64,000 bases of DNA from Austropuccinia psidii (lineage: Eukaryota > Basidiomycota > Pucciniomycetes > Pucciniales > Sphaerophragmiaceae), in NCBI GenBank assembly GCA_023105745.1, contig JALGQZ010000007.1:52619569-52683568 (forward strand), read 5' to 3'. This document shows, in pieces, positions 39,017-62,085 of this stretch; within the stretch, counting starts at the first letter, position 1, and every line of letters begins with the position of its first letter. The notes under the pieces were generated by a model. It searched no databases, had not been told where the DNA came from, and saw only the letters and a program-made list of their open reading frames with translations. The position numbers and the translations under genes were made by a program.

Positions 39017-39244
39017 TTGATGTAGGGGAAAAATGATGGGGCAAAAAATGTAAAAAGCAAAATGATTTTGTTGGTTGGAGGGGTTAGCATGCTAAGTTAA
39101 GATACAGCTTGTAGCCATTTTGGGGGTTCCGGATTTGAGTATATTTGTGACGGATATTGCACTTTCTCATGACTGTTTGGGACCCTATATCCGCAAACTG
39201 ATTTCTTGCCTTTCCGGTAAGAACTGAAGCCCCCTAATGACAGG
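39017..39244. other. Short flank between Harbinger and E1
   Basis: No gene or repeat was recognised. The last five bases, ACAGG (39240-39244), are the left target copy of E1. The sequence may be the continuation of the host DNA seen right of 62,407. Confidence 0.4.
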
Positions 39245-39630
39245 TGTCAAAGCTGAAGGAATTCCTCCAGCTTCTACCTCTATAAATAACTCTTATTCCT
39301 GATATCCTCTGGAGGGGATCATTAAAAAAACCTTTGTATCTTTTCTCTTTACTAAAATTACTTTCATTCTTAAATTATCTCTCCTACTTCTGGTTGTGTG
39401 TTGTGGTGTGGTAAGAACTCTTAAACATGGCTTACTATTACCAGCAACATTCTTATTCTTTACCTTGTTTTATTACTAGTGCTATGTCAAGGGATTACCT
39501 TGTTATTTATCCATTGTGTTCGCTTAGTTATTAAATTTTTACTATCCTTTAGGTACTTCAAGTATTCTGTATGTTCCTACTTATCTAGTGTTACTGAAGT
39601 ATATCTTTAGTTTCTACGTTGAATTTAACA
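39245..39630 (+). mobile_element. 5' LTR of E1 (386 bp)
   Basis: It matches 55,916-56,179 joined to 62,282-62,407. It holds a TATA-like TCTATAAATAAC at about 39,281, followed by a TTGTATCTTTTCTC pyrimidine stretch, a plausible start of transcription. It ends TTTAACA next to the PBS. The 3' copy is preceded by about 118 bp (55,798-55,915) starting TGTTGGAATC after a purine tract; the target duplication argues that these are internal, but a truncated 5' LTR is possible. Confidence 0.78.
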
Positions 39631-39644
39631 GATTTACAGTCTTG
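39631..39644 (+). promoter_or_regulatory. E1 primer-binding site complementary to the tRNA-Tyr anticodon arm
   Basis: GATTTACAGTCTTG directly follows the LTR. Its reverse complement, CAAGACTGTAAATC, equals the anticodon stem and loop of eukaryotic tRNA-Tyr (anticodon GTA) up to about position 40. Primer and PBS would pair as in Drosophila copia, which uses the 5' half of initiator tRNA-Met. Confidence 0.75.
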
Positions 39645-39687
39645 AAACGAATAATCAAGTACAAACTAAAGGATAGGACAGCATATA

Positions 39688-42600
39688 ATGGCATCAGAAG
39701 CAGACAACAAAAACAGAAGTTGTCCTCTCCCAACCCTCTCTGAAAACAACTATCCAGAGTGGAGAAGGAGGGTGGTTATGCTCTTAAAACATAAAAAACT
39801 TTACCAACATTGTGTTGATGAGACATCACCGTTTGTAAACAGAAACTCCAGACCATCAGCAGCAGATAATAAAATCATTGATGCCAATGCAGAAACCTGC
39901 AACCTGATTTCAGGGACTCTAGACTCTAATACATTCACTGAAATTTTTGAGAATGATGAAACCATTGAAAATGTGCATCTTTTATGGAATAAACTAACAA
40001 ACAGCTTTGCATCCTCCACGTTCAATAACCAAGCGAGAATGTGGATGAGATTCTGTAGGATCACTTGCAATGGTAGCCTACAAAGCTTTATCTCAGAAGT
40101 TATACAATGCCTAAATGAAGTAATCACTGTTAAAGTTGAGGTTGGAAACCTACACTAGCTTTCACTATTCTAACCAAACTACCGTAGGACTATCACAACA
40201 TAGTTGAAAAGGTAACAGCAAACACAGAGACTCTTAGAAACACCAATGCCATCCGCAACCTATTACATGACGTTGTGCTGAAAGAAGAAGCACTCAACCT
40301 TCAGAACAATAACCAATCCGTAGCATTAAATAGAGAAATATTCTGCTCAAAAACAATACATTATTGTAGGGATGGAAAGCACAACCCACTAGCAAGTCAC
40401 CCTGCCGACAGGTGCTGGCAGCTGCATCCCAAGCTCCGACCAGAAAGACACATAAGAAATCTAAAGGTTAATCTGACAATTGCTCAAGCACTGATGACAA
40501 CTCAGACCAGAAGCCAGATGTGCTTCATTGTTCTGGACACCGGTGCATAGAACCACATGTTCAATGACATGTGTTTCTTCACAGACATTAGGCGTGAAGT
40601 AAACATGGCAATTTCAACAGGTTGTGATAAGTAAACACTTAATGCTGCAGGAGAGGGGACTGCTAAGCTGATGGACAGAAACGGAAAGATCTGGACATTA
40701 AAAGACAGTTTGTACGTACCAAATTTAACAACAAATCTGGTGGCACTTTCTCGACTAGCCAGAGAAATAACCATTAAGAATAAAGGAAGCATGTATGAAA
40801 TCTTTCTGAACAACTACAATAAACCAGCGTTTCACTGTGCAACAAACAGTGGTATATTGGAAAAAAGTGTTACATTATCTAAACCAATAAGTTTGGACAC
40901 TACAAATGAATCCTGGAATGACAGACTGGGTCACATGCATGAAGAAGGAATTAAAAGACTGATTCCCAAATTCAAGCAAGAAGGTACATGCAAAATTTGC
41001 ATGCAGGGCAAATTTCCAAAGTTTCCATTTCAACACAATTTCCAAGAACCAAAACATCCACTGGAGAATATCCATCTGGACCTATGCGGTCCAATGCAGA
41101 CTGCGTTGATTAGGGGAGCAAGGTACTTCATGATTATAATCAACCAATTCACAGGCTACATCAACATCAAGTTCCTGAATCACAAGAGTGAGGCTTACAC
41201 ACACTTCCACAACTTCAAAGATCATGCAGAAAATAAACAAAAAAGAAAAATCCTCAACATTACGTCAGACGGAGGAGGAGAGTTTGTAAAGATCAACTTC
41301 AAGAGATTAAATGACAAAAGTGGAATCAATCACATAGTCAGTCCACCATACACACCACAGCATAACGGGATAGCTGAAAGAATAAATCGGGCTGTCATCA
41401 AAAAGACTTGCTGCTTGCTACTGCAATCAAAACTTCCACCATGTTTCTCGGCAGAGGCAGCAACTACCACCACTATGCTATGCAATTTAGTACAAAGATG
41501 GGAGAAGACACCCTATCAACTCTGAAATTCCCAAGTACCCCCAATCAACAAACTACGACTGTTTGGGTGTAGAGCATGGGTACAAGTACCTGAGGCAAAC
41601 AGAAGAGGAAATTTTGACCCTGTGGAATGGGAGGGCATATTTCTAGGTTATACCAACCAAGCCACAGCATATCGAGTGCTAAGAAAAGTAGATAACACAG
41701 TGATAATAAGCAGGTATGTCAGATTTGAAGAATCTGTCTTTCCTGCTCTCGCTACAAATTTCCCAAGTGTTCCTCTGCAGTTTCCAATTTTCAATTTCTC
41801 AGTCAAGGACAATAATTGGAATCTGAGTGCTGACACATCTGATTTATCCTCTGACAGCGCTACCAAAGGAGACATCTTTCATGATGCTTTGGAAGAGCTA
41901 CCTGCAAGGCGAATCAGAGTGATAGGGCCTAGGCATCCCACTTTAATCTCCAGTGAAATTAGAACCAACAGCATCCTACCATTTAGCAGAAGACCACAAA
42001 AACTGATCTATTAAAGAGTTCTCAGGCGCCAACCAGCTTCAAAAAGGCAATTGAAGGCAATGACAAGGAGGAATGGATCCTAGAAATCAACAAAGAATTG
42101 GATAACATGAAGAGGCTAGGTGTCTGGAGTATTGAAGACAAAGAGGCAAATGATCATCTTATTGCTACAACCTGGGTCTTCAAAGTAAAAAGGGACCACA
42201 ATGACAAGGTCCTCGAACACAAGGCGCGACTATGTGCACAAGGTTTTCATCAGATAGAAGGCCACGACTATCTTAATACTTTCTCACCAACTGGGAGAGT
42301 CAGTTCATTAAGAGTATTAATCTCTCACGCAGCATTTCAAGGTTTTCAATTCCATCAGATGGACGTGAAGAGTGCTTTCCTCAACACATCTCTGGATGAA
42401 GATCTCACACCAAAAATTCCATATGGGTTAAGCAAGGATTCAAAGTAAAAATTACTCTTATTACACAAGGCAATTTATGGCCTAAAGCAGGCTCCACTTG
42501 CCTGGTACAACTACCTATTGAAATGGTTGAAAGATATTGGCTTTGTGGTTGCAGTGTCAGATCCATGTGTGTTCTTCAGGAAGGGAATTAAACCAGTGTG

Positions 42601-42799
42601 GATCTAAGTGCATGTTGACAATCTGGAAATATTTGGACCTGATCTGTTAGATTTCAAAACAGACATAAAAAACTCTTTTGAGATGAAAGACCTTGGGGTA
42701 AAGATTACCCACATCAACAATGGGTTCACTTTATCACAGGAGCACTACATCAATACCTTGGCTCCGGAATATGACCTTGAAAAGTATTTTCCAGTAAAC
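39688..42799 (+). pseudogene. E1 gag-pol, first part (gag, protease, integrase, most of RT)
   Basis: Gag begins at ATG 39,688 (LPTLSENNYPEWRRRVVMLL, the UBN2-like copia gag start). A frameshift lies between 40,158 and 40,275. A CCHC-like knuckle is degraded (HYCRDGKHN). Protease shows VLDTGA, then a stop, then NHMF. The integrase zinc finger (WNDRLGHMHEEG, CKICMQGK) and catalytic residues are visible: HLDLCGP, TSDGGGEF, PQHNGIAER. Reverse transcriptase gives ATTWVFKVKRD, HKARLCAQGF and FHQMDVKSAFLN. Its catalytic box reads VHVDNLEIF, so the second Asp of the D-D pair is replaced by Asn. Another frameshift lies between 42,014 and 42,098. The frame stops at YFPVN where E2 enters and resumes at 55,008. 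Confidence 0.86.
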
Positions 42800-43352
42800 T
42801 GTGATGATGCAAAACTAAACAATAGTATTTTATTAATAATTATAACATAAACAATAGTGGTTTTAAGAATGAAGAAATACCTAAACGGTGCGCTGTAATT
42901 AACTATCAAATAAAGTACCACACAGCAACAACAAGATGGAACAATAGCCAACTAATAATGGATGAGTAAGATTAGTAAACAAAACAGTTATGATTTTAGA
43001 TTTTAACAAGACTAGACAATACCTGAATCAGAACAAGATCAATTCAATTAATGATAAAATAAAAGAAAAAGAAAGTAGTTGAAAGAGAAATAAAAGTAAG
43101 GAAAGGAAAAAGTAAATGATATAAAAGTAAAAGCAAAAGATTTTAAGATATGGGAAAGGAGAATTTTGAGAAAAAAGAATTGAATTCTGGTTGATAATGT
43201 TGGGGTAAGGTGCTCGTCTTATATATTCGAAAAGTAGAGGTTTTGTTTATGCGCAGTGATCTGCGTGGTCAGTTGAGTGTGGTGATGTGGAGTATTACGA
43301 ATAGGAGTGGCGTTCAGACAATCAGGTACATTCTTGATTGATATTTTCAACA
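42800..43352 (-). mobile_element. 3' LTR of E2 (553 bp)
   Basis: It is bounded by the TAAAC target copy on the left and, on the right (upstream in element sense), by the purine tract GAAGTGAAGGGGTG at 43,353-43,366. It is the uninterrupted copy and shows the empty site for the LTR-C found in the other LTR. Confidence 0.9.
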
Positions 43353-45406
43353 CACCCCTTCACTTCTAGTCGCAATACACCCAGGGAAGAGAGCAAATTT
43401 TTGAGAATTCGTCGATTGACCAATTTAGTGAGGAAATCAGCAAGCATGAGATTGGTGGGGGTATATACCAGTTTAACCTTTGAGGAGCTTACCACTTCCT
43501 TGATGAAGTGAAGCTGAATGTCTATATGTTTCATTTGCTTGTTATTTAGATTACTGTTGCCATTGACGGTGTTTATACAACTTTGGTTGTCTTCATAAAT
43601 CGGAATAGGCTTGTTGATTCTTGACAGGATACATTCCTGACACCACTTCTGAAGCCACAAAAGCTCCGAGGTCAGGTCACATAAGGCCTTATACTTGGCT
43701 TCTGCAGTGGAGAGGGACACCGTTTATTGCTTTCGAGTCTTCCTTAATACAAGTTAGCCATCAAAGGTTGCTAGATAACCAGTCACAGAGCGCCTGGTTA
43801 ACTGGCAATTGCCCCAATCTGCTTCACTATAGGCTTCAATGCCTTGTGCATTTGTTTTTGAGTAGACGAGCCCAATGCTTTGTGTTCCTTTCAAGTACCT
43901 CAACACATGTAAGAAGCCGTTCCAATGCTGAATTCCTGGATTCTCCAGAAATTGCAACAGTGAACTAACACTGTGGGCTAAGTCAGGCCTTCTTGCAGTG
44001 CTCAGGTAGTTGATGCTACCAATAGCGCTACAATAACTGACACCTAGGAGATTGAACTTTGAAATTTCTTCTCCGGTCTCTGGAGACAAGTGAACATTTG
44101 GAAGTAGCAGAGTGGACACAGACTTACTTTCAGACAAGCCATAGAGATCAAGCAACGACTTGGTGAAATGTTGCTGGTCCAACGTAATTGACAAACCAGA
44201 CCTTGAGACTTTCACTCCTAGCATTAAATCAGCAGGGCCTATATCTTTGATGTCAAATTCTCGCGCTAATTCTTCTTTAAAGGAGGATGCACTGGAGCTG
44301 AAGATGGCGATATCATCAACATGGACATAAAGCCATGTTGCGACTTGTCCCAGACAACAGAAGACACATGGATCAAGGATGCAGGAAATAAAACCGACTC
44401 CTAGAAGCCATTTTCAAAGCCGTTCATACCAAGCTAGCGGAGGCTGTTTGAGGCCGTAAATGGCTTTATTCAGCCTGAGGCAAAGCTTCCTTTGATCAAG
44501 TACTAGTCCTTGAGGGATACAGAGGTACACCGTTTCAACCAACGGTGCATTGAGGAATGCACTTTTCACATCCACTTGGTGAAATTCAAGATTATTTGAG
44601 ACAGCAAAAGCTATTAGGGTCCGAAGAGAGTTGAGTTGGCCAGTCAGTGCATAAGTCTTGTTGAAATCAAGTCCTGGAGTCTGAGTGAAACCTTGGGCAC
44701 ACAAGCAAGCCTTGTATTCAGTGATCTCATTTAGGTGTTTTTGCTTGATTCTGAAGACCCATGTAGTCCCAACCAGCTTGTAGTCCGGTTTGAGATCAAT
44801 AACGTCCCATACCTTTAAGGTATTCATCGATGCAAGCTCTTTTTCTATTGCTGAAACCCAATGGTCTTTATCGGCAGAGACCAAGGCCTTCTTATAGGTC
44901 CTTGGACAATACCCTGGGTCTTTGAGAAAAAGGAAGAATGTTGCTTTTATGGATGTCAGCTGAGTATATTGTAGGATGCCTAGGTCCAATAACCTTTATG
45001 CAAGGATTCACTACTGGATGGCTGTTTTCATCCCCAAGACTATCATCAGAAGAAGAATGGGATTCAACTACCATTTCTTGATCTTCTCTTGTGATGACAG
45101 CAGGTTCTTCAGGTTGGGGTTCATCTACCGACTCTGCCCTGACTGGATGGATTTCATCTACCACCTCAGTCCTTGACAGATTACTTTCCCATGCTATCGT
45201 TAATTGTTCTTGAGACTGAGGACTATCTTTTAATGAAGGAAACACGGTTTTGTCAAACTTAACATGCCTTGAGATCAGGATTCTTTTGTCGGAAAGACAA
45301 AGAATCTTATAGGAGCTATTGTCGTTTTCGTAACCAAGCATGATGCCTTCTGTTCCTACTGGGCCGAGCTTCCAATCTCAATGGTGCTTGGGGATTAAGA
45401 CCACTG
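43353..45406 (-). pseudogene. E2 pol, last part (integrase C-terminus, RT, RNase H)
   Basis: After E3 the frame resumes with the integrase C-terminal phrases KLGPVGTEGIMLGYENDN and ILISRHVKF. An acidic linker leads to IKVIGPRHPTI. Reverse transcriptase is recognisable as LVGTTWVFRIKQ, FHQVDVKSAFLN and the catalytic box WLYVHVDDIAI (frame shifted, near 44,330-44,300). RNase H is seen as AYSEADWGNCQLTRRS, STAEAKYKALCDL and EDNQSCIN. The ADFLTK phrase occurs near 43,430. At least three frameshifts break the gene. Confidence 0.86.
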
Positions 45407-45961
45407 TGTTAAACTTTGAGAACTTTAAAGTTGGAATGCATTAACAAGTAGGTTTAGGTTTTACAGAGGTAAGAGCAGTAAGTACCTTTAAAGGTGGGAT
45501 GCGGTAACGCAACAATATGATGCCGCAGCGATGGTCTTTGATTTCTTAAATAAATGTAATAAAGAGAAAAACACAATGTATCTACTTACAGAGATGAGCG
45601 ATAGATGAAAAATAGTTAATAGAAAATGTTCTATTGGCCCAAGGACTTCGTTCCTTCTCGTCGTGGAGAAGAGTTGCCTTCTTATAGGCTATCATCTTTG
45701 TCCTTGAGTCGTGATTTTAAGAACCAGGATGTTCCTGCTGGGCAGTGCCCGCGTAAATACTAATCCTACGGGATGTTACTGCTGGACGGTGTCCGTGTAA
45801 ATACTATTCCCGGTTTTTATAGGAAAGTTACTGCTGGACGGTGTCCGCGTAGATGCTTATCCGAGCAAGCAAGACTCAGTTAGTCTTTGGTAGTTCTTTA
45901 TGCTTTTACACTGGGTATGGAGCCGTGCTTACCTAAACCCTTTTGGGTAAATATTTCCACA
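45407..45961 (-). mobile_element. 3' LTR of E3 (555 bp)
   Basis: It differs from the 5' LTR by about 17 substitutions and one 17-base gap between two CAACAAT words. It contains a triple repeat of TTACTGCTGGACGGTGTCCGCG-like units near 45,730-45,860. The gag-pol frame runs about 60 bases into this LTR before its stop. Confidence 0.9.
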
Positions 45962-48900
45962 TCACCGCTCACACCCAGTCGCAAAAGATTTAAAGCGCGT
46001 AGTGAGTTCTCAAGCGTGTTCTTGTTAACAGATTTCGTTAAGAAATCTGCTAGCATTTGTGTTGAGGGAGTATAATGTAGGTGTATCAGATTTTTTTGAA
46101 TCGCCTCCTTAATGAAGTGTAGTTGAATATCAACGTGCTTCATGCGTTTGTTGTTCAGGTTGCAGTCCCCGTTAGCTGTTTTAATGCAACTCTGATTGTC
46201 TTTGTATATGCAAATGGGCTCATTGAAGGTGATTAGCTTTGCTTCTTCACACCACTGTTTGAACCACAAGAGTTCTGAGGTGAGGTCGCACACGGCTTTG
46301 TACTCGGCCTCTGCCGTGGAGATGGAAACTGAGGGTTGTTTCCGTGTTTTCCATAGAACAAGGCAGTCATGAAAACGGGTAAGGTAGCCAGTGGTCGACC
46401 GCCGTGTTACTTTGCAGTTTCCCCAGTCGGCATTGCTGTAAGCAGTGATGTCGCTGTTTTTGTTGATGGGGTACCATAGTCCTATGCTGGCGGTTCCTCT
46501 TAGGTATTTAAGGATATGTAAGAATGCCTGCCAGTGTTTGATTCCTGGCCGCTCTAAGTATTGTGACTGTGTGCTTACTGGAGAAGACAGGTCGGGTCTG
46601 GTTGCTGTACTGAGGTAGTTAATACTGCCAATTGCACTCCTGTAGTTTACCTTTAAGTTTTTAAAGGCAGTTATTTCATTGTCTGTGGCTGGACAGAGAT
46701 GTTCATTGGGGGTCAGTGGTGTTGCCACTGTCTTGCATGTGTCCATGCCGTATTGTTCTAGGAGTGCCTCCGTGAAGTGTTGTTGGTCGAGGCTGATGCC
46801 GTTCTCCCTATGCCAAACCTTTATACCCAGCATCAAGTCTGCCTCACCGATGTCTTTAATGGTGAATTATTTTTGTATTTCCGCCTTGAATGGAGCTGTA
46901 TTTTTGCTAAAGATGCCAATGTCGTCTACATGGATGTACAGCCAAACTGGAATACTGCCTGTCCTGTAGAAAACGCAAGGGTCAAGTGTGCAAACGGAGA
47001 ATTTTGCTGACTGAAGCCAATTCTTGAGTTGTTTGGACCAGGCTAACGATTCTTGCCTTAAGCCGTAGATTGCATTGTTCAGTCTAAGGCAGAACTTTTG
47101 TTTGTTGAGTTGTAGGCCTTGGGGTATTGCTAGGTATACTGTTTCCTTTAACTGAGCATTGAGGAATGCGCTTTTTATGTCAATTTGGTGAAACTGTAGT
47201 TTGTTGACGCATGCAAAAGCCACTAGTGCTCGTAAGGAGTTTAGGCGCCCAGTTGATGCGTATGTTTTGCTGAAGTCTACTCCCATGGATTGTGTGAAGC
47301 CCTGAGCACAGAGTCGTGCTTTGTGCTCAATTGGTTCATTTAGTTCGTTTCTTTTTATTTTGAATACCCAAGTGGTGCATACCAATTTGTAGTCTTCATG
47401 CAGATTGACTACGTCCCAAACTTTTAGGAGGTGCATGTTTTCCAGCTCCTTGTTGATTGATTCTTTCCACAGGAGGTGATTTGCTGATTCCAGTGCACCA
47501 AGATAAGTTTTTGGGGTCTTGTTGGATGTTGTCAATAACGCAGCTGTTCGCCTTTTGTAGGGCAGGATGTTTAGGTTGTTTAGGTTCGATGTAATCAAAG
47601 TTGGATTCTGTGGACCAATAATTTTTATACGAGGAGCTTGTGCTTCCTTAGCTGTTGGTGTTGTTTCCAATATATCTTCCTCCAGTTGCCTTGTGTCACT
47701 TGTTTCTAGACTTTGCTCGTCTTCCATTGGGTCTTGAGGTTCGCTACCTGTTTGGTCAATGTTTGGCGCGTCAGGCTCATTCAGTGAAATGTTGAATGTT
47801 TCAGTTGTGTTATTTTTGGGGATAGAGGGGAACACCTCCTCATTGAACGTTGCATGGTGGGTGATTGAGACTTTCAAGTCATTTAGTCGAAGAATTTGAT
47901 ATGCTGTGTTGTTATTTTTGTAGCCAATAAATATACCAGGTTGTCCAGGTGGGTCTAGTTTCCATCTTACTTGTTGGTTAAGGTTGTGTATTACTGCTCT
48001 ACAGCCGAATTTTTTAAGCCTTGAGAGCCTTGCGGGAGTGTTGGTCCACAGGAAGTGTGGAGAGTGATTTCCTCTTGACGCTGTTGGTGACATGTTGGAT
48101 AGGAGCACTGCTGTGTTTACAGCATCAGCCCAAAAATTTGCAGGGAGATTTGATCCTCCCAGTAGGCAACGTGCCTTTTTGAGTATTGTTCGATTTGCTC
48201 TTTCCGCAAAGGTGTTGTGTTGTGGTGTTTCAGGTGGTGAGAATATGTGTGTGAAACCACATTCGTCCAATAGTTTCTTGAATGCGTTGTTGAGGAATTC
48301 TCCTCCTCTGTCTGATACTAGCTTCTTTAACTTCTTGTCTTGTGTATTTTCCATGGCAATCTTTGTCGTTTGAAATTGTTCAAATACTTCGGATTTCTTT
48401 TGTAGAAATTTGACGATTTTGTACAATGATGATTGATCTACTATAGTGAGAAAGTACCATTTGCCTGACACTGACGGAGGGTTGATTGGTCCAACTACGT
48501 CCATGTGTACACAGTCTAGGGTTGAAAGCACTGGTTCAAAATGGTTCTTGAAGGGTTGCTTGTGTGCTTTGTTTGTTTCGCAAACAAGGCAGTTGTCATT
48601 TGGGGTTGGTAGTCCCAAGTGTATAAGTACTGAGTCTCCCGGATGGCCTAATCTATCATGCCAGAGATTGTTGGTTTGATTGGTGAGAAATGTTTTAGGA
48701 AAGGTGTAGTCGATAATCATCAATTTATTTATTATCTTGCCATGCATGATTTTTTTTTCCATTTGAGATGAGGCTGAAAACATTTTCTTTTCGATTCACT
48801 GTCAATTTCTGTTTAAACAGTTCTAGGAGGCTGATGAGGTTGCACTTGAGGTTTGGTACATATAGACACTCTTTAAGTGTTATTGTATTGTTATTATTAA

Positions 48901-49909
48901 GTATTTTTACTATACCTATCCCAACCGCAGAGAGCTTACTGTTTGCATCTCCTGTTGCCACGTGTATGCTGGTAGCTTTTGGAGTATTAACAAAAGCTTT
49001 TAAGGAGTTGAACATGTGGTGGGTTGCCCCACAGTCTAGTATACGCTGATCCTCTCTTGGTTGGAGGAGTGCTGGCGTTGTCATGAGAGCTTGGGCAATC
49101 GTAAGATGGGCAGTGGCATCGAAATGTCGACGTTTCTTTTCTCTTCTGGGAGGTCTTAAGTGTGGATTCTCTGACCAGCAGTCTTTTTTTTTGTGTGTGG
49201 TGCACTTAGAGTTGTGTTTTCCTTTTACGCAGTAGTAGACTATTTTGTGTGGCTCTTCTCCATTGGTCAATAAAGCCGTTGGTGAATGATTTTTAGACAC
49301 TTCCATGTTGTTCAAGTGTGCCAGGTCTTGAAGTTGTGTTAATATTTTCTCGGGTTTTTCAATAATGTCTTTGTTCAAAGTAAGATTCTCAACAAATTGA
49401 TGTAAATTTGTGTCTCCTCCTAACTTTCCTAACAAGGAGTATGAGAGAGGTTCTGCTGGCACTATGATGCTAACTGCGTCAAGTTCCATCATCAACTTTC
49501 TGCATGTATCAATGTAATTTTGTAGATTACCATCATAGAAACTCCTCTGACAATCCATCCATACTCGGCCTCTATTTACTGCTCTCTTTGAGGCATATTG
49601 GTCCTCAATTTTTGCCCATAGTAAGTTTGCCTTTTCCATGGTTGTAGCATTGACCACTTCTCGAAAAACTCGTTCTGTGAGTCGGGTTGTTATTAAGTTA
49701 ATTGCTTCATAGCTTGCCTTTGACCATTTGTTTACTGCATGTGTTGATACGTCTTCAGGGGGAGATTTTTCGCACACATCAATGAGGTCTTTGAATCTGA
49801 GGTGAATTTTTATACGCATGTGCCAATGGCCAAAGTTGGTTCCATCAAGTAATGGAATGTTGCTAATGTCTTTTATGTCAGTCAATCTTTCGGCCATTAT
49901 TCCTTGCAA
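45898..49909 (-). pseudogene. E3 gag-pol polyprotein gene, one frameshift and one stop
   Basis: Gag starts near 49,909 (a second Met, MAERLTDIKD, lies four codons on), with PLLDGTNFGHWHMRIKIHL and RGRVWMDCQRSFYDGNLQNY. A knuckle-like YYCVKGKHNSKC and the protease motif ILDCGATHHMF follow. A length change in the A run at about 48,751-48,759 shifts the frame. Integrase then shows WHDRLGHPGDSV, CLVCETNK, HMDVVGP, KLVSDRGGEF and PQHNTFAER. Reverse transcriptase has CTTWVFKIKR, FHQIDIKSAFLN and IHVDDIGIF, all catalytic Asp present. One TAA follows EIQK at about 46,866. RNase H has SNADWGNC, STAEAEYKAVCD, KDNQSCIK and ADFLTKSVNK. The total length is typical of copia (about 1,340 codons). Confidence 0.92.
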
Positions 49910-49933
49910 ACCACCTTGAGTTTTTGGAGCTTG

Positions 49934-49945
49934 AGACTGTAAATC
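49934..49945 (-). promoter_or_regulatory. E3 primer-binding site (tRNA-Tyr anticodon arm complement)
   Basis: GATTTACAGTCT follows the LTR end TTTAACA in element sense, 25 bases before the first gag ATG. Confidence 0.72.
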
Positions 49946-50517
49946 TGTTAAACTTTGAGAACTTTAAAGTTGGAATGCATTAACAAGGAGGTTTAGGTTT
50001 TACAGAGGTAAGAGCAGTAAGTACCCTTAAAGGCGGGATGCGGTAACGCAACAATAATCTAAATACAACAATATGATGCCGCAGCAATGGTCTTTGATTT
50101 CTTAAATAAATGTAATAAAGAGAAAAACACAATGTATCTAGCTACAGAGATGAGCAATAGATGAAAAATAGTTAAGAGAAAATGTTCTATTGGCCCAAGG
50201 ACTTCTTTCCTTCTTGTCGTGGAGAAGAGTTGCCTTCTTATAGGCTATCATCTTTGTCCTTGAGCAGTGATTTTAAGAACCGGGATGTTCCTGCTGGGCA
50301 GTGCCCGCGTAAATACTAATCCTACGGGATGTTACTGCTGAACGGTGTCCGCGTAAATACTATTCCCGGTTTTTATAGAAAAGTTACTGCTGGACGGTGT
50401 CCGCGTAGATGCTTATCCGAGCAAGCAAGACTCAGTTAGTCTTTGGTAGTTCTTTATGCTTTTGCACTGGGTATGGAGCCGTGCTTACCTAAACCCTTTT
50501 GGGTAAATATTTCCACA
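49946..50517 (-). mobile_element. 5' LTR of E3 (572 bp)
   Basis: It is bounded by the PBS and by the CACTG target copy. It carries the extra 17 bases (between two CAACAAT words near 50,050-50,075) that the 3' copy lacks. Confidence 0.9.
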
Positions 50518-51780
50518 CACTGCCCTGCATCCAAAGACACAAAGCTTCTTAATTCGGGGTGAAGCTTTCCTCCAGAGGCTATAGGGGCTGAGATTCTTTC
50601 TTGAAGGTGTAGGAACAAGATTGCACAAGGTGGTTGAAATGTTGATGGCTTCCGCCCAATAAGTGTTGGGAAGATTTGAATTACTGAGAATGCATCGGGC
50701 TTTCTCCAGTATAGTTTGGTTAGCTCTTTCTGCAAAGCCGTTATGCTGAGGAGTGTTTGCTGGGGAAAACACATGGATAAATCCATGAGTTTCAGAGAGT
50801 TTTTTGAATTTTTTGTTCAAGAATTCTCTGCCACAATCTGATATCAATTTCGTGAGAAGTCGATCATGAAGTGTTTCCATTTCCTTTATGACAATTACAA
50901 ACTGATTGAAAGCATCAGATTTATGTTTCAGCAATCGTACAATTTTAAAGGAAGTGGCTTGATCTACTATTGTAAGAAAGTAGCAGAATCCGGAGACAGA
51001 AGACGGAGTAATAGGTCCGACAAGATCAATGTGAACACAGTCCAGAAGATGACTTACGTGTTCAAATTGATTGCTGAAGGGAACCATGTGCATTTTATTA
51101 ATGTCACAGGTTGGACAATCGGATGCAACTTCAGGGAGACCCATGCTCTTGATGACCTGATTTCCTGGATGTCCTAACCTTTGATGCCAAATGTTTTTTG
51201 TGGCTTGGGTTGACAGTGCTTTTGGAATGGAGAATTCAACTCGCATTATATTATTGATTATTTTTCCTTCAATTAGAGTTTGGTGATTCAATTCTAGCTT
51301 GAAGTTCCCATTATCTTGAGTGATGATGAGTTTTTCCTTACAGATTGCAAGTAAACTAATGAGATTACAGTTTAGTTTTGGAACAAACAGGCAATCATTT
51401 AAGGTGAATATTTTATTGTTACAAAGGAGAACAACTGTTCCGATACCTTCAGATAGAAGAGAGCTGGTAGAGTCTCTGGTGCACACCTCTAAGTGTGGAG
51501 TTTGTTCAAGCGTAGATAAGCATGATTTTGAGTTGAACATGTGATGCATAGCACCACAATAAACTATGAATTCCATGCTGTTAAGGAGATATGCTCTACG
51601 AGTGATTAGTGCTTGAGCAGTTGAAATGTGTGCAGAGGCATTCTGATTGTAACCAGCCTTTCTTTTGTTGTTTTGACGATTCAGAGGTCTTAGTTCTGGG
51701 TGCTTGGCAAAGCATTCTTCCTTTGAGTGGGAAGTACAATTTGGATTATGCTTCACATTTGAACAATAATAAGTGATCTT
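50518..51780 (-). pseudogene. E2 pol, first part (zinc knuckle, protease, integrase)
   Basis: A long frame starts in the knuckle region (KHNPNCTSHSKEECFAKHPEL). The protease motif reads VYCGAMHHMF, with Tyr where the catalytic Asp of the related DCGA motif stands. Integrase follows with WHQRLGHPGNQV and CPTCDINK (zinc finger), then CVHIDLVGP, KLISDCGREF and PQHNGFAER for the two Asp and the Glu. The frame stops at FGCRAV where E3 enters. The first Met of the open frame (51,756) is internal, not a true start. Confidence 0.88.
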
Positions 51781-52420
51781 GTAAGGTCCAGATGATTCAG
51801 CTATTAAGGCTGTGACAGAGGAAGTGGAGGTGGTACTTGTGTTTTTGAATTGTTATGGAAGTCTTGAAGTTTTGATATGACAAGTTTGGGTTTTTTGACG
51901 AGATCTTCATTAAGACTGAGGACTTCTACATATTGATGGATTTTTGGATCTCCTGAAATTTTCCAAGAAGCATAAATGTATGCAGTTTGGCAGGAACATG
52001 AATGTTGACTGTTTTGAGAGCCATCATAAACTTTTGGCTGTTATCAATGTACTCTTGAAGATTTCCGTTGTAAGTTGATTTCAGCCACTGCATCCATACT
52101 CTTCCTCTATTTATTGCCTTTTTTGATGCATATTTCTCTTCAAGTTTTGTCCAAAGAAGATGTGAGTTTTTTGAATAGTGTTTGACTACCTCAATGAAAA
52201 CTCTATGGCTAACTCAAGAGGATATGAGACTGATGGCATCAAAACTGGCTTTGTTCCAGTTATTTTTTGCTGTTGCAGTTGTGTCAAAAGGTAAGTCCTT
52301 TTTGCATACCTCTAATGATTCTCTTGACCAAAGAAGAATAGTGATACAAGCATTCCATTCCCCATAATTGGTGCTGTCTAGTATTGGAATGGAAGCTGCT
52401 TCAATGTTAAATTTGGTCAT
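51781..52420 (-). pseudogene. E2 gag
   Basis: Gag starts at ATG 52,420, 60 bases inside the LTR end, with PILDSTNYGEWNACITILL, the copia gag N-terminus (UBN2 type). A stop after ISLISS and later frameshifts break it. The motif KKAINRGRVWMQWLKSTYNG can still be read further down. It would form the particle shell. Confidence 0.8.
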
Positions 52421-52468
52421 GATAGTTTAGAATTAAAGTCCACCGTTGTTTTGTTAATTAGAGCCTTG

Positions 52469-52480
52469 AGACTGTAAATC
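52469..52480 (-). promoter_or_regulatory. E2 primer-binding site (tRNA-Tyr anticodon arm complement)
   Basis: In element sense GATTTACAGTCT directly follows the LTR end CATAACA. It is the same 12 bases as in E1, E3 and E4. Confidence 0.72.
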
Positions 52481-55002
52481 TGTTATGATGCAAAACTAAA
52501 CAATAGTATTTCATTAATAATTATAACACAAACAATAGTGGTTTTAAGAATGAAGAAATACCTAAATGGTGGGCTATAATTAACTATCAAATAAAGTACC
52601 ACACAGCAACAACAAGATGGAACAATAGCCAACTAATAATGGATGAGTAAGATTAGTAAACAAAACAGTTATGATTTTAGATTTTAACAAGACTAGACAA
52701 TACCTGAATCAGAACAAGATCGATTCAATTAATGATAAAATAAAAGAAAAAGAAAGTAGTTGAAAGAGAAATAAAAGTAAGGAAAGTGTGAGCCTTGAGG
52801 TATATTTTACATACCCAAATAGGCCACAATTATCTTAAAAAGAAATTTTGAATTATACATAACTCATAAATCATGCATATATTCAAAATTCATCATTTTT
52901 TATTGCAGAAAAGATGGATAACTTTTTATTGAGTAAGTAAATACATGGATTTAAGGCCAGATTTGGATTCTACACAAAAATTCACCTAGGGTAGCTCCAT
53001 AGAGTGAATAAGCTAAAATTAACTCTTTGAGGTGGTAATATGGAAAATACTTCAACACCACATCATTAATACCACATAAAAGATCTGTGAAAATTTTTGT
53101 TTTTCTTGATTTTACACCAAAATAATGGGAAAGTGAGAAATCCCATGTTACATATACACTAAGAATAGTGTTATACATGTTTTGAGCAATTAATATTATG
53201 GTATTCTTACATTCACTTTTGGTACACCCATAGTGGATATCTCACTAAGCTTAAATTTCTATTTTTGACATGAAAAATAAGCAAGGGGGACAAAAGACAT
53301 CAAAGAGAGCCAGGGTACCCAACTTCTGAGGCCCCAGAGGCCTGGATAGCTCCAAAGCTTGGTTCCATGGCTGATCTTGACCCAATTGGTAAACTAAACC
53401 TCTTTGGGAACTTGGTTACCAAGCTACAACAACTGTAAAACAGCAGAAAATAGCAAATAACCTGCTATTTTGACGTGCCAAGGAGGTAAAGAGCTACTTA
53501 CACTCCTGTAACCGTGTCAATTACTAATGACTTTCCATTGATAAACCCCAAAAGAGTAATTAAAACCCTTTTTGGACTTGTATCCATTGATTTACCTCAT
53601 AGCAACCAGTCAAACACTGATATTTGCAATTCTACGTAGAAATGAGGTAAAAACTTCAAAAATTCATTCAAAGTACAATTCTTAATGAATCTTTCTGAAA
53701 CTTTCAGTACCAACTGAGAACTGTATTATCTATGGTACAACCAAACAAAATTTAAGTTTTACTAGTAAAATTAAAAGTTTTACTAGTAAAATTAAAAGTT
53801 TTACTTACAGTCCATTTTTGGTTATTTTACATGAAACACTGAATCTTCAAAAATTCACAGTAAATACAACCTGTGATGAAATTGTCAATAACATTGATAT
53901 CTTTGGGAAATCAATGATTACTTTGGAATAAAAGAAGATTTACAAATGTTACTCCTTTTATTCTTAACCATATTGGGGTTGGTAGTCACGTAAAAGCATC
54001 AATTAAGCAATTATGACAATTTTACATGACAACAGATGATGTAAGTACTAATCCAAAAGGGTTGAATGCTTTCTCACTCACTGGTTTTTCAGTTTGCTTC
54101 ATGGCACGCCTCTGTGAGCTGTTTTTGACTTAAAAGAGACCTTCTCTTGCTGTTTTTTCCGCATCATCATCATCTTATTATCATTTTATATCATTATTAC
54201 CAACAAGTAAGTATTAGTTAAAACTCTTCTTAAGTGTTTTAAATCTTTCAGAATCAATCAGAAAGACGTGAAACATAGAATCCAACTATATATTTTTGTA
54301 ATCCTGCTATAAATCATTTTGATCTCTCAAATCCACAATTCTACGTCAAATTTCTCTACTTTTATCTATCAATAAGTTCTTTGGAGTATTAGTGAGTCAT
54401 TTATCTTTAATTCTTAAAGTTTTTCTCTAGTAATAGTTTTCTTCAAGGATTAGCTTTATATTTATTCTTGCAAAAGATAATTATATATTAAAATAATTTT
54501 ATTATTTTAATAAAAGAAGTTTTTATTATTAAATTCTTCTTGTAATTGATTCTTGTAGACAATTACTTGCTCACTATTAAAATCACTAGTAGTTCTTAAC
54601 ACGTGAAAGAAATAATTCTTTAATTATTTAATTGTGGTTATAATAATATTTTATTATTATATTTCATAAGAACAGACATAGTACTGTTGATAAATAGTAA
54701 TATTATCAACAGTTTTATAGTCACATCTTACAGAAAGGAAAAAATAAATGATATAAAAGTGAATCAAAAGATTTTAATATATGGGAAAGGAAAGTTTTGA
54801 GAAAAAAGAATTGAAGTCTGGTTGATAATGTTGGGGTAAGGTGCTCGTCTTATATATTTGAGAAGTAGAGGTTTTGTTTATGTGCAGTGATCTGCATGGT
54901 CAGTTGAGTTTGGGTAATAAAGTTGAGTGTGGCGATGCGGAGTATTACGAATAGGAGTGGCATTCAGACAATCAGGTACAGTCTTGATCGAGATTTTCAA
55001 CA
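52481..55002 (-). mobile_element. 5' LTR of E2, split by a solo LTR-C
   Basis: The parts 52,481-52,786 and 54,738-55,002 together match the 42,800-43,352 LTR. It starts TGTTATGATGC on the plus strand and ends TTTTCAACA. Confidence 0.9.
52787..54732 (+). mobile_element. Solo LTR-C (1,946 bp) in the E2 5' LTR
   Basis: It begins TGTGAGCCTTGAGG and ends CATCTTACA in the plus (element) sense, flanked by perfect GAAAG at 52782-52786 and 54733-54737. The intact E2 LTR near 43,117-43,131 shows the empty target AAGTAAGGAAAGGAA. Confidence 0.93.
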
Positions 55003-55007
55003 TAAAC

Positions 55008-55760
55008 ACCCCCCTCAAACCAAAGCTTCAATTAAACAAGGCCACCAAGGAGGAGGAAGCTGAGTTCGCTAATCTTAACATCAATTATTGAAGCGCTATA
55101 GCTGCTCTTAACTACATAAGTACCAACACCAGAACTGACATCACATTTGCAGTAAGTCACTTATCTCATTTTTTAGAGAAACCTGGGATGACACATTGGA
55201 CTGCATGCTTACAGGTACTAAGGTACCTATAACACACAAAAGATTTATTGCTGCACTACTCCAGGGAAGGTAACAAGGGAATAAAAGCATACACAGATGC
55301 TGACTGGGCTGACTGGGGTAACTCGGTAGTTGACAGGAGATCGACATCTGGCTACATTGTGACAGTTAATGGACACCTGGTGTCTTGGAGAACTAAAAAA
55401 CAGCCCACCGTATCACACTCAACTACGGAAGCGGAGTACAAGGCTCTGTCCGACATGACTAAGGAAGTGGAATGGCTGATTCAGCTTCTGAAGGAAATTG
55501 ACTTGAACAGAGAAAACTCAACTCCACAATTGTTCAATGACAATAAAGGAGCCATTGATTTGGCATTATCTAACACAAATTACAACGGATTCAAGACCAA
55601 ACACATGGACATTAAATATGACTATATCCGTGATCTAATCAGGAATTCAGTCATCAACTTAAAATACATCTCAACTAATTCTATGGCAGCTGATTTCCTA
55701 ACTAAGTCAATTGGAAAAATGATCCTATTACGTTCTTGGTGTTTCCTGAATCTTTGCTAA
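55008..55760 (+). pseudogene. E1 pol, last part (RT end and RNase H)
   Basis: Reading resumes in register after the E2 target copy, with TPLKPKLQLNKATKEEEAEF. The copia marker SAIAALNYIST and the RNase H core AYTDADWADWGNSVVDRRSTSGY, STTEAEYKALSD and NDNKGAIDLAL follow. It ends with ADFLTKSIGK near 55,715, the usual C-terminal phrase. Stops at INY* and YL* damage it. The 3' untranslated part carries a purine tract AAAGGGGGC at 55,788-55,797. Confidence 0.86.
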
Positions 55761-56910
55761 AATCTGCTTAACTCCAAAGTCATTTGCAAAGGGGGCTGTT
55801 GGAATCTGTGATAAAAACCACTATAAGCTAGCAGTTCTCCACTCAGACACTATCAATGAGTGTGCCTAAAAACGTGTCAGGTGACTGACCATAGATATCT
55901 CTATCCAACAGTTTATGTCAAAGCTGAAGGAATTCGGCCAGCTTCTAGCTCTATAAATAACTCCTATTCCTGATATCCTCCGGAGGGGATCATTAAAAAA
56001 CCTTTGTATCTTTTCTCTTTACTAAAATTACTTTCAGTCTTAAATTATCTCTCCTACTTTGGGTTGTGTGTTGTGGCGTGGTAAGAACTCTTAAACATGT
56101 CTTACTATTACCAGCAACATTCTTATTCTTTACCTTGTTTTATTACTAGTGCTATGTCAAGGGATTACCTTGTTATTTATGATGAATTTAACGTATAAAA
56201 TAAAAGACAATACAACTGTGTAAATAAGTAATGAGACTGAGAACAGCAGGGTAATCCCTTGGCATAGTGCTAGTAAAGAGATACATGATTAACCAGAAGG
56301 TTGACAACTATAGTAAGGCGTGGTTGAGAGATCTTACCACAATACACACACACAACACGTAGCAGGAAAAATAGGAAAAATATGAGAAATAAAAGAATAA
56401 GGAAGAGAGAAAAAATATGGGTTCAGATGTGAGAATAGTAAGTAGTACAAGATTTTATAGCACACAAGGAATGAGTTAAATCAGCTTTGTCCTAAGCCTG
56501 TTGGACAGAGATGACCATGCTCTGTCATCTGATGTGTGATTAGTGTTCGATACGAACTGCTAGCCCGTAGTAGTTCTTGAAAGTTTAAGCAAACTAAGAG
56601 TATAGTATTAACATCACAATACAACCTGAAATGAGACATAGTAAACCAAGAATGGTTAAGTACCTAAGAGTGAACAAAAGCACTAATATGTTTAACAAGT
56701 CTATCACCACACAAGACACAACTCCTAACACAATAGATAAGGTGAATGGGTTAGTAGAGTGCTCATAACATGAGAAATAATGACAAACCAACCTAACGCT
56801 ATACAACACACTAATATAAAATTGTAAATAACTCAAATGTTTATCTATTAATAAATCAGTCGTAAAACACACACTAATTTCTTGAGTGAGTGTTTTTCAT
56901 ACAATAATCT

Positions 56911-57470
56911 TGTTAAAAATCAGACCAACTGACACTCCAATGGCCCAAAAATGTCCGAGCAATTAACCACTAAAACCGGATATGCGCCACAATTATCGTC
57001 GTCATTTGTCAACCGCCACATTGATTGACAAATATCCTAACCGCCACAATTACAGTCAATGCTCATCATTACTGATGATCATCACTACTTAAACCTCGCC
57101 TCTCAACTCTTAACAAGAACCATTATTGACCTTTCTACCTTTCCTACTTTCTTGACTCTCAAACTCTTTCCTTTCTTTCCTCTTCTTTTACTTATTCGCT
57201 CACTCTCCTTTACATTCATATTCACAATCTCTTGTTCTCAGTTGTTCAGGTATAGTAAAAACCAAACATGTTATCACTCCTTAACTACAAACTATTAACT
57301 AACTAATCTTGTTGTTCTAGCTGTTTGTTGTTCTAAGTTGTTGCATCGTTGTCCATTATTTATCATTGTTGTTCACTTGTTATCCACCTTTAGGTATTGT
57401 CACCATTATCCTTGTGATTCTAGCTACGTGAAAGACTAATGAAATGCACCTTTAGTTCTGCATTCTAACA
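56911..57470 (+). mobile_element. 5' LTR of E4 (560 bp)
   Basis: It begins TGTTAAAAATCAGACC and ends CATTCTAACA. The pyrimidine-rich stretch CTTTCCTTTCTTTCCTCTTC at 57,165-57,190 may mark the start of transcription. A 79-codon frame occurs in both LTR copies and is not a gene. Confidence 0.93.
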
Positions 57471-57484
57471 GATTTACAGTCTTG
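57471..57484 (+). promoter_or_regulatory. E4 primer-binding site (tRNA-Tyr anticodon arm complement)
   Basis: GATTTACAGTCTTG follows the LTR directly and is identical to the E1 site, although the LTRs of E1 and E4 are different. Confidence 0.75.
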
Positions 57485-57530
57485 TCGCTACGCTCAAAAG
57501 AAACAGAACAGGTGGATTTCAAAATTTACC

Positions 57531-60500
57531 ATGGCAGAAAAATATAACGAAAAGGATAACACTTCTATACCAATCCTAGATGGTACCAACTACAGTGAAT
57601 GGTACCTCAGGATGTGTTTCCTTCTTTGATCAAAAGACCTTTTAGAGGTCTGTGAAAAAGCCATTGGACAAGATGCAACTCCTTCCGCAGTCAATCGGTG
57701 GACCAAATCAAGTTTTGAAGCAATCACTACAATTACCTCTCGAATTAATCGACCTGTATTCTTGGAAGTCATCAACTCTGAAACTTCTGAAAAAGCTAAT
57801 CTTTTATGGTCCAAGATCAACGAACAATATGCCTCAAAAAGGGCTATGAACAAAGGTCGAGTTTGGATGAACTGGCAAAAAGCTAACTATTCTGGAAATC
57901 TCCATCAGTATGTTGAAGAAACTCGAAAATTTCTCCTTGAACTCGAATCTGTCAGTGTCAAGGTGCCATCTGAAATACTGTCGTATATCATCCTGGGGAA
58001 ACTGGCAGGAGATCCAAAACTCACTCAAATCGTTGAACTACTCACTCTCAACAAAGATATTATCGAGAAACCTGACCAGATCCTCTCACGTCTACAAGAA
58101 TATGCCAATCATTGCCAAACCAAAGATGCTCAACCAAATTCATCAGCACCGGCATCAGCACTAGAATCATCAACAAGCAACAAACCTTATTGAATAATCT
58201 ACTTTTGCTCGAATGGGAAGCACAACCCAAAGTGTTTAACCCACAGAAAGGAGGAATGCTTTGCCGAAAACCCACACCTGAGACCACAAAGACGAGATAA
58301 TAAGAGGAAAGCGCCTAATCCCAAGCCAGCAGCCCATATTTCGACTGCTCAAGCTCTCTACACCAATGCGAATCACCGATTATCCCCTGGACAATTGGTA
58401 GTAGACTGTGGAGCAACTTACCACATGTTCTACTCAGAAGATGCATTTGTTTCCTTATCCAAGGATACTACGTTCACAGTCACCACAGGAGATTCATCCA
58501 GCAATCTGATGGCTGAAGGCACGGGAACAGTCAACCTCCTCAGCAATAACCAAGTTCTGACACTTCCGAATACTCTTTTCGTACCTCAACTAAATTGCAA
58601 CCTTGTCAGCTTGTTAAAAATCTTCGATAAAGAGCTAACCATTAATCGCGACGGGGACTCATTCACGCTCACCGAACAAGGCAAAGAAATTCTGCAAGGA
58701 AGAACGGAAAATAACCTCATGAAAGTCGATTATCAACTTCCAACTGCCTATAGGACAATTACCAGAGAAAACCCATGGCATGAAAGACTTGGACATGTAG
58801 GTAGCTCTGTTATTAAATCAATGGGTCTACCACCATCGGAAGAGGCATGCAAAATCTGCGACCTCAACAAGATCCATCGCCTCCCTTTTAAAAGCCATTT
58901 CGAACCTGTTAATCTCCCTCTAGACTGTATTCACATAGATTTGGTAGGACCTGTCTCTCCTCCATCAATCTCTGGGTTTTGTTACTTCTTAACTGTTGTA
59001 GATCAAGCCACCTCTTACAAAGTCGTCCAACTCCTGAAGAACAAATCGGATGCCTTCAAACAGTTCACTGTAGCCAAAAAGAAGATGGAGACTCAACAGG
59101 ATAGATCACTGAAGAGGCTGATATCCGACTGAGGCGGAGAATTTTTGAACTCGCATTTCAAGCAGCTCTCAGACGAGTGTGGATTCACTCACGTCTTTTC
59201 TCCAGCATACACCCCTGAACACAATGGCTTTGCCGAAAGGGCTAATCGTACGATTCTTGAGAAGGCCAGGTGTATGCTCAATGCTTCAAAACTTCCAAAA
59301 TCCTACTGGGCCGAAGCCGTCAGTACTGCGACACTTGTGTCCAACTACATCCCTACTCCCTCTAGACACAATCACTCTCCCCATGCGATGTGGACAAAGC
59401 TGTCTCCAAGAATTAAAAAACTCCGGGTTTTTGGCTGCCAAGCCTTTGTCATGACCCCCAAAGAACATCGACAATGGAAGCTTGGTCCTACGGGAGAAGA
59501 AGGGATCCTTCTTGGATACAAAAATGATTCAGCTTATCGTATCCTTTGCCTCTCGGACAGGAAGGTTGTTATATCGAAACACGTCAAATTCAATGAGTCA
59601 ATCTTTCCTGAGTTGAAGCAGCAATAATGAGATATTGCTCCTCTGGATATCTCCTGGGATGCAGTTGAAGGGCAGGAGGTGGTAGATGAACCCCACTCTC
59701 CGTCTGAGTGTCCTCTGGAACCGGTAGATGAAGTCCGGATGACTGGTTCTCAAGACACTACGCCCACATCCAATCCGGATCAAGTAGATGAAGTCCTTCC
59801 GGTGGATGAAACTGACTCCTCGCCTCTTCGCACTGTTCAATCTAAACCTCCTGGTCGAATCAAAGTCATTGGCCCACGCCATCCGACTCTTATCTGCAGC
59901 AATATCAATCAGCAGAACATACTTTCCTACCCCAGGCGAGCTGGAGCCCTCTTGACGTCTGCAGATGAGACACCTCGCACTTTCAAGCAGGCGTTAAACT
60001 GTGACGCCAAGGAAGTCTGGACTGCAGCCATCAACAAGGAGCTTCTGTCAATGGAAAAGCTCAAAGTCTGGGATGTCGTCAGTCTTGATCCATCTTACAA
60101 GCTTGTTGGTACCACCTGGGTCTTCAAGACGAAGAAAAATCATCTGAATGAAATCATTGAGCACAAGGCCTGTCTCTGCGCTCAGGGATTCACTCATACC
60201 GCAGGAATTGACTGCGACAAGACGTATTCTCCAACTGGAAGGCTAAATTCCCTGAGAACGCTGATTGCCTTCTCAGCCTCCAATGGCCTTCTGTTTCATC
60301 AAATTGAAATCAAGAGCGCTTTTCTAAATGCTCCTCTCTCGGAGACAGTCTACCTCAGCCTTCCTCAAGGCCTCAATGAGGACAGACGAAAGTTCTGCCT
60401 TTGTCTTAATAAGGCTATTTCCGGACTAAAGCAGGCTCCCTTGGCATGGTATGAAAGGCTGAAGCGCTGGCTGACCACTGTTGGATTCAAGGCTTGTACT

Positions 60501-61547: not shown

Positions 61548-62085
61548 CACTCCAACGGCCCAAAAATGTCCGAGCAATTAACCACTAAAACCGGATATGC
61601 GCCACAATGATTGTCGTCATTTGTCAACCGCCACATCAATTGACAAATCTCCTAACCGCCACAATTACAGTCAATGCTCATCATTACTGATGATCATCAC
61701 TACTTAAACCTCGCCTCTCAACTCTTAACAAGAACCATTATCGACCTTTCTACCTTTCCTACTTTCTTGACTCTCAAACTCTTTCCTTTCTTTCCTCTTC
61801 TTTTACTTATTCGCTCACTCTCCTTTACATTCATATTTACAATCTCTTGTTCTCAGTTGTTCAGGTATAGTAAAAACCAAACATGTTATCACTCCTTAAC
61901 TACAAACTATTAACTAACTAATCTTGTTGTTCTAGCTGTTTGTTGTTCTAAGTCGTTGCATCGTTGTCCATTATTTATCATTGTTGTTCACTTGTTATCC
62001 ACCTTTAGGTATTGTCACCATTATCCTTGTGATTCTAGCTACGTGAAAGACTAATGAAATGCACCTTTAGTTCTGCATTCTAACA
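61526..62085 (+). mobile_element. 3' LTR of E4 (560 bp)
   Basis: It has the same length as the 5' copy, with 9 differences, 7 of them transitions. The gag-pol frame ends 22 bases inside it. Confidence 0.93.

Follow-up and report, generated by a model that had tools for sequence, protein, structure and literature searches.

How reverse transcription starts from a half-tRNA is poorly understood, and, to our knowledge, it is not settled what cuts the tRNA for this kind of priming. In Drosophila copia and in yeast Ty5, priming proceeds from a tRNA that is cut in its anticodon arm, as would be the case here (PMC5371799, PMC10886601). In rust fungi, primer-binding sites (PBSs) of the anticodon-loop type, for both tRNA-Tyr and tRNA-iMet, have been described in Copia elements of Puccinia hordei (Kojima 2024, PMC10886601), in a work whose host table includes Austropuccinia psidii. 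Here we consider a 64,000-nucleotide stretch of the A. psidii genome (contig JALGQZ010000007.1, positions 52,619,569 to 52,683,568; hereafter the window), in which four nested copia insertions, E1 to E4, carry the same 12-mer, GATTTACAGTCT, directly inside their 5' long terminal repeats (LTRs). We argue that GATTTACAGTCT(CG) is very probably the minus-strand PBS of one copia clade, with the spliced host tRNA-Tyr(GTA) supplying the primer in the form of its 5' half (positions 1-40). This reading is built from sequence comparison: the site is flush with the LTR, it complements positions 27-40 of the mature tRNA, the match is broken in the intron-bearing genes, the site is nearly invariant across divergent LTRs, and it belongs to one reverse transcriptase (RT) clade among the rows sampled.

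The first-pass annotation of the window had proposed that E1 to E4 share a motif directly inside their 5' LTRs, and this was borne out: the window contains four exact copies of the 12-mer, and every one of them stands immediately behind a 5' LTR with the end ..TAACA. When one mismatch is allowed, the count rises to five as compared to 0.51 expected, a number reached by none of 100 shuffles; the fifth match (10652-10663, one mismatch) lies within an unrelated repeat without signs of an LTR, and its flanks resemble those of the genome matches L050, L070 and L072. In the host genome (1,015,390,075 bases in 84 contigs searched), the 12-mer has 1,178 exact copies as compared to 37 of the reversed word, and CAGATTTACAGTCTYG has 645 as compared to none for its control. 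The flanks were inspected at 72 sites, namely 68 of the 100 listed places of the 12-mer and the four sites of the window. The dinucleotide CA immediately precedes the 12-mer at 57 of these 72 sites; nine of the other 15 have CG, TG or CA behind the 12-mer and resemble, by eye, PBSs behind mutated LTR ends, and L050, L070 and L072, also among these 15, belong to the same unrelated repeat as the window match at 10652. A PBS of the 3'-CCA type, with TGG at 0-5 nt from the LTR end, was looked for at the site and rejected because no TGG is present there (the first eight bases are GATTTACA; the absence is inherent in the 12-mer); nor is the site a palindromic 9-mer of the kind that, as a conserved hairpin site, takes the place of a tRNA PBS behind the LTR in fungal GalEa, being, by eye, neither CTGATCAGT/CTAATTAGT nor palindromic. 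A scan of viral contigs for the site yielded three stretches, two of them with identical flanks, which we take to be probable chance matches, and among 175 database proteins searched for peptides that read through the PBS, P0149 and P0163 were the two candidates, neither of them used here.

The tRNA-Tyr genes of the host were located by one pattern for the 5' part of tRNA-Tyr and then by ARAGORN, which identified all four loci as tRNA-Tyr(GTA) with anticodon-loop introns of 20, 20, 58 and 10 nt. The unbroken complement of the 12-mer is absent from all four of these intron-bearing loci. If the intron is removed at the canonical border, which lies behind base 37 in our numbering, all four genes read ..GAGCGCGAGACTGTAA|ATCTTGAGG.. 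and complement 14 nt of the site (positions 27-40, the complement of which is GATTTACAGTCTCG). The alignment with host genes that the first-pass annotation had suggested therefore upholds its claim that the site is the complement of the tRNA-Tyr anticodon arm ending near position 40, and not of the 3' CCA end: the host tRNA matches up to C40, and TGG is lacking. The 12-mer is also contained in a probe for yeast cytosolic tRNA-Tyr (PMC7200024). The two bases that follow the 12-mer are CG (25), TG (15) or CA (14) at 54 of the 57 sites preceded by CA, and CG (31), CA (3) or TG (1) at all 35 sites placed by means of RT matches (see below); all four window copies have decayed forms of CG. Since these are CG and its two CpG-decay products, an ancestral match of 14 nt fits the data; transposable elements are CpG-depleted in the A. 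psidii genome of just over 1 Gb (PMC8063080). Opposite G26 of tRNA-Tyr, 30 of 45 families have A and no more than four have C, which indicates that the match ends at position 27. If G26 is modified here, as it is in eukaryotic tRNAs, a stop of plus-strand copying at this base would explain the end of the match at 27.

A survey independent of the motif started from 6,251 candidate copia RT places, 150 of which were scored. Fifteen of the 150 lie in the area with a complete listing of the 12-mer, and seven of these have the 12-mer, by eye, about 2.5-2.65 kb upstream. Among the other eight, six have an LTR pair and all six bear the copia-type half site GGTTATGGGCCCAG or a form with one mismatch, whereas the remaining two have no LTR pair within the pieces examined. 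From its CAT anticodon context, we take this second type of site to be that of initiator-Met. The assignment leans also on the statement on tRNA-iMet made for Puccinia hordei (PMC10886601). For a larger sample, the first 103 of the 150 rows were reduced by 15 (C1 rows, two known C2 rows and three C19 tandem copies), and the resulting 88 were sorted by RT length; slices were taken for all 40 rows with an RT match of up to 720 bp and for the first 20 of the 48 longer ones. These slices were set by distance from the RT and not by the motif, so that sites at other distances would escape. The tRNA-Tyr 12-mer was found in its exact form in 35 of the 40 shorter-RT slices and in forms with one to three mismatches in none of them, and one slice has an exact initiator-Met site; all 20 longer-RT slices contain the initiator-Met type (17 exact, three with one mismatch). 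The word CAGGTTATGGGCCCAG occurs 224 times in the host genome as compared to none for its control. In the initiator-Met class, the inner boundary of the match is less sharp, with C at the base corresponding to that opposite G26 in five of nine families.

It could be argued that the primer is the 5' exon (positions 1-37) released upon splicing, in which case GAT would only separate the LTR from the PBS. Such an exon would be available, inasmuch as all four host tRNA-Tyr genes located have anticodon-loop introns; introns are also noted for the four primer tRNAs of fungal Helenus (PMC10886601). However, GAT pairs with A38-U39-C40 and directly adjoins the LTR end, all 35 RT-placed sites retain it, and none of the 40 slices contains a near miss that would spare only the other nine bases. 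The initiator-Met class is likewise flush with the LTR, at what would be the canonical C40 by standard tRNA numbering. Because GAT matches positions 38-40 and is conserved with the rest of the site, a 5'-exon primer appears very unlikely.

The type of PBS follows the phylogeny of the RTs. In a tree of 24 RT rows, all 16 rows with the tRNA-Tyr site are parted from all six initiator-Met rows by a branch with 100/100 support. In a larger tree of 43 rows, all 30 tRNA-Tyr rows fall on one side and all eight initiator-Met rows on the other, and the five rows that lack a site or an LTR pair are placed within either of the two groups; long-branch warnings at L182/L183 (initiator-Met) and at L094/L195 (tRNA-Tyr, kin of E1) make the exact places of these rows unsure. 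As judged from these trees, the PBS type is a clade character among the RT rows sampled. A switch of the PBS inside the tRNA-Tyr clade (L151, C3:69504452) was considered and dropped, the RTs in question grouping with the other initiator-Met rows.

Several observations concern the organization of these elements in the genome. Fourteen of the listed initiator-Met sites fall into about 0.7 Mb (C2:22.18-22.91 Mb), which may represent a hot spot or a segmental array, and four copia RTs at C19:4591925-4606045 stand in a row with an exact spacing of 4,469 bases, apparently a tandem array of one element. In LTRs of the initiator-Met class at L076, L078, L080, L082, L086 and L090, the 3'-terminal ~50-75 bp are present twice, and the extra copy is followed by GGTGAG, GGTGAT, GGTGAA or GGTAAG where the PBS follows the real end; it looks like a splice donor or like the end of an older LTR.

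Two features surround the tRNA-Tyr site. Just behind the PBS, the commonest 4-mer is GCTC, the complement of GAGC in the 3' strand of the D-stem of the host tRNA-Tyr (22-25). It is present in 23 of the 45 families, where shuffles gave a mean of 0.5 and a maximum of 3. In the RT-placed sample, nine of the 22 families have it (shuffles: mean 0.3, maximum 3); of these 22 families, seven are common with the first sample and 15 are unshared. These statistics support the view that the GCTC box can pair with the D-stem of tRNA-Tyr. The gap between GCTC and the 14-nt match varies between 0 and 4 nt among the 23 families (it is 7 nt in E4), whereas an unbroken complement would need 1 nt, so that GCTC would be a separate annealing block.

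The second feature is a stem between the unique 5' region (U5) of the LTR and the leader. Duplex energies, computed in fixed windows, average -12.5 for the families' own U5/leader arms as compared to -9.7 (standard deviation 0.41) for arms swapped between families, with none of 20,000 permutations being as low; a control region showed nothing (3,777/5,000). The corresponding values are -12.9 and -10.5 in the RT-placed sample (2/20,000) and -13.0 and -10.0 in its 15 unshared families (3/20,000). By a looser measure, the longest perfect run, the difference is modest (7.4 bp as compared to 6.25 bp with swapped arms). In the initiator-Met class, the energy signal is weak (136/5,000, nine families). 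Because arm swapping preserves the features that are common to the families, the advantage of the own arms is evidence of co-variation, and the statistics support a co-varying U5/leader stem that would enclose the PBS. When E1 to E4 are folded, the stem encloses the LTR end and the PBS in each of them, the PBS itself being drawn in several as a small hairpin.

The position of the motif in a conserved stem-loop would also be expected if it were a conserved packaging, dimerisation or integrase signal with a coincidental likeness to tRNA-Tyr. This seems very unlikely, given that 14 nt match the host tRNA-Tyr, contiguously only when it is spliced, and that in the sister clade the corresponding position is taken by a complement to the anticodon arm of a different tRNA. 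As to self-priming of the Tf1 kind, in which the 5' region of the transcript would fold onto the site without any tRNA, it is predicted for 12% of the surveyed plant LTR elements (PMC6317226) and inverted repeats are present in the leaders, but a self-primer was sought and not found in the LTRs of E1, E3 and E4 and the PBS-side part of the E2 LTR (longest complementary run 5-7 nt) or in the 200 bp before the PBS at 57 sites (best complement of the 12-mer with 3-6 mismatches, the same as for the reversed control word), so that it appears very unlikely.

With the half-tRNA reading, the following cycle can be envisaged: tRNA-Tyr would be cut 3' of C40, its 5' half would anneal at the PBS and the GCTC box, the RT would extend the 3' end of the half into U5, and plus-strand synthesis would copy the tRNA back, whereby the PBS would be renewed in each cycle. 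More tentatively, and with somewhat less than an even chance of being right, all of the above may be combined: the 14-nt PBS in its co-varying stem and the D-stem box would make up a two-part, pre-folded dock, the tRNA-Tyr and initiator-Met PBSs would both start opposite position 40 owing to one cut position, and the end at 27 would reflect a stop at a modified G26. With two copia clades that match the halves of two tRNAs in hundreds of exact copies, the prediction is clear: there should be 5' halves of tRNA-Tyr that end at C40.

Several points weigh against a tRNA-Tyr half as the primer. The cleavage of tRNA-Tyr and the use of its half as a physical primer are both steps that we infer. The mature tRNA sequence hinges on the splice border chosen: with the border given by ARAGORN (38-39), two genes (L032, L033) yield the same mature sequence and the other two (L034, L035) differ at base 38, so that this split bears out the sequence for two of the four genes, and the set of four itself comes from one search pattern. 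Four of the 40 shorter-RT slices are without a tRNA-Tyr site and one has the initiator-Met type instead. The GCTC box is missing in 22 of the 45 families, E1 included, and is present in only four of the 15 unshared families of the second sample. Finally, single-sequence folds are unremarkable as compared to shuffles for E1 (z -1.33, not significant alone), E2 (+0.25) and E3 (-0.43), and only that of E4 stands out (-2.70).

The four insertions (Table 1) were delimited by self-comparison and by reading of their boundaries. E2 lies within E1, E3 lies within E2, and E4 lies within an insert located in the 3' LTR of E1; all four have LTR pairs with TG..CA ends and 5-bp target site duplications (TSDs). 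The Kimura two-parameter (K2P) distances between the LTRs are 0.016 for E4 and 0.035 for E3; for E2 and E1, each compared in two parts, they are 0.024 and 0.074 (E2) and 0.040 and 0.079 (E1); with LTR distances that range up to about 0.08, the same primer site is carried by nested insertions of different age. Copia gag, integrase, SH3-like or RT domains (Pfam) were found in every one of the four elements. The Ty1/copia order, integrase before RT (PF07727), is present together with the gag and pol domains; the reading frames are broken to varying degree, and in E1 and E2 the domains are spread over separate broken frames. The RT frame of E4 has 477 matches, the best at 86% identity; among the 120 listed, 111 are from Austropuccinia psidii MF-1 and nine have a JGI label only, and no relatives of this RT were found among viral contigs. 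The gag region of E3 has 55 matches, every one of them from A. psidii MF-1.

Table 1. Coordinates of the nested copia elements and of their priming-related features in the window.
Feature	Position	Strand	Remarks
E1, whole element	39245-62407	+	self-comparison and boundaries
E1 5' LTR	39245-39630	+	TSD ACAGG at 39240-39244
E1 PBS	39631-39642	+	GATTTACAGTCT, complements tRNA-Tyr 29-40; followed by TG, taken to be a decayed CG opposite 27-28
E1 U5/leader stem	39605-39671	+	39605-39613 would pair with 39663-39671, PBS inside
E1 3' LTR	55916-56180 and 62282-62407 (span 55916-62407)	+	split by the insert that hosts E4; TSD ACAGG at 62408-62412
E2, whole element	42800-55002	-	self-comparison and boundaries
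E2 5' LTR	52481-55002	-	split by ~1.95-kb repeat (about 52787-54732); TSD GTTTA
E2 PBS	52469-52480	-	GATTTACAGTCT; next two bases CA
E2 GCTC box	52461-52464	-	
E2 3' LTR	42800-43352	-	TSD GTTTA next to it
E3, whole element	45407-50517	-	self-comparison and boundaries
E3 5' LTR	49946-50517	-	TSD CAGTG
E3 PBS	49934-49945	-	GATTTACAGTCT; next two bases CA
E3 GCTC box	49927-49930	-	
E3 open frame	46867-48795	-	integrase, SH3-like and RT domains (Pfam)
E3 3' LTR	45407-45961	-	LTR pair
E4, whole element	56911-62085	+	self-comparison and boundaries
E4 5' LTR	56911-57470	+	TSD AATCT at 56906-56910
E4 PBS	57471-57482	+	GATTTACAGTCT; next two bases TG
E4 GCTC box	57492-57495	+	7 nt behind the 14-nt match, beyond the usual gap
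E4 U5/leader stem	57447-57514	+	57447-57451 and 57455-57460 would pair with 57504-57514, PBS inside
E4 open frame	59631-61547	+	RT domain (PF07727), Pfam
E4 3' LTR	61526-62085	+	98.4% identity with E4 5' LTR

The ~1.95-kb repeat in the 5' LTR of E2 (52787-54732, minus strand) has a second copy, 90% alike, at 13506-15424, within another repeat of 1.4 kb. The segments 56181-56910 and 62086-62281 are remnants of a ~0.93-kb insert in the 3' LTR of E1 that was split by E4; ATTTAT at both edges of this insert resembles a target duplication. The bases ahead of the E1 3' LTR (55890-55915) are not purine-rich, unlike GGGAGTGAGGGGGGG of E4, so that the polypurine tract of E1 would be degraded or unusual.

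As in half-tRNA-primed copia elements, the PBS considered here is internal to the tRNA, directed against the anticodon arm, flush with the LTR and free of TGG. Drosophila copia and Ty5 use a half of tRNA-iMet, whereas the present clade would use tRNA-Tyr. Copia-50_PHord and the fungal Helenus terminal-repeat retrotransposons in miniature (TRIMs) of Pucciniales are like the elements described here in the primer assigned to them, the anticodon loop of the mature, intron-free tRNA-Tyr, and in their 5-bp TSDs and rust hosts, and the P. hordei genome, too, has further families with the anticodon loop of tRNA-iMet as primer; the Copia-50_PHord study dealt with Repbase sequences of P. hordei (PMC10886601). 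In FunCo1, a Copia of filamentous ascomycetes, the three anticodon bases are flanked by ATT and AGTCT just as in the present site, but the PBS has been assigned to tRNA-Lys, unlike the tRNA-Tyr proposed here (PMC5445492). In the plant Copia lineages Osser, Bryco, Gymco-II and Bianca, half-tRNA primers are employed and the PBS type is mostly characteristic of the lineage, as here, but the halves are those of tRNA-Met and tRNA-Ile, not of tRNA-Tyr (PMC6317226).

The first-pass annotation had further supposed that priming by tRNA-Tyr is a distinctive trait of this rust lineage. This part of it has to be given up: the tRNA-Tyr anticodon-loop PBS was already on record for P. hordei Copia (Kojima 2024, PMC10886601), a similar match to tRNA-Tyr exists in two bivalve TRIMs (PMC6934838), and within this genome only one sampled copia clade has it. 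A conserved cleavage of tRNA-Tyr, which the annotation also put forward, would follow from the half-tRNA reading. In the bivalve elements, found in two species, the likeness to the central part of tRNA-Tyr lies immediately downstream of the 5' terminal repeat; these are non-autonomous animal elements, and the match was not accepted by the authors as a canonical PBS (PMC6934838).

The GCTC box and the U5/leader stem may be new features. In Ty1 and Ty3, a second short element next to the PBS pairs with the primer tRNA at a different place, and the whole tRNA primes from its 3' CCA end, unlike the half-tRNA envisaged here. The bipartite PBS of these elements (PMC5371799) can be likened to the PBS with its GCTC box; the text of PMC10886601, as excerpted, contains no passage on the D-arm or on a hairpin at the PBS, and none on a test of RT clades. 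Taken together, the core idea of half-tRNA-Tyr priming had appeared in print for rusts before, and the present analysis contributes how far it extends in one genome and the structural context of the PBS.

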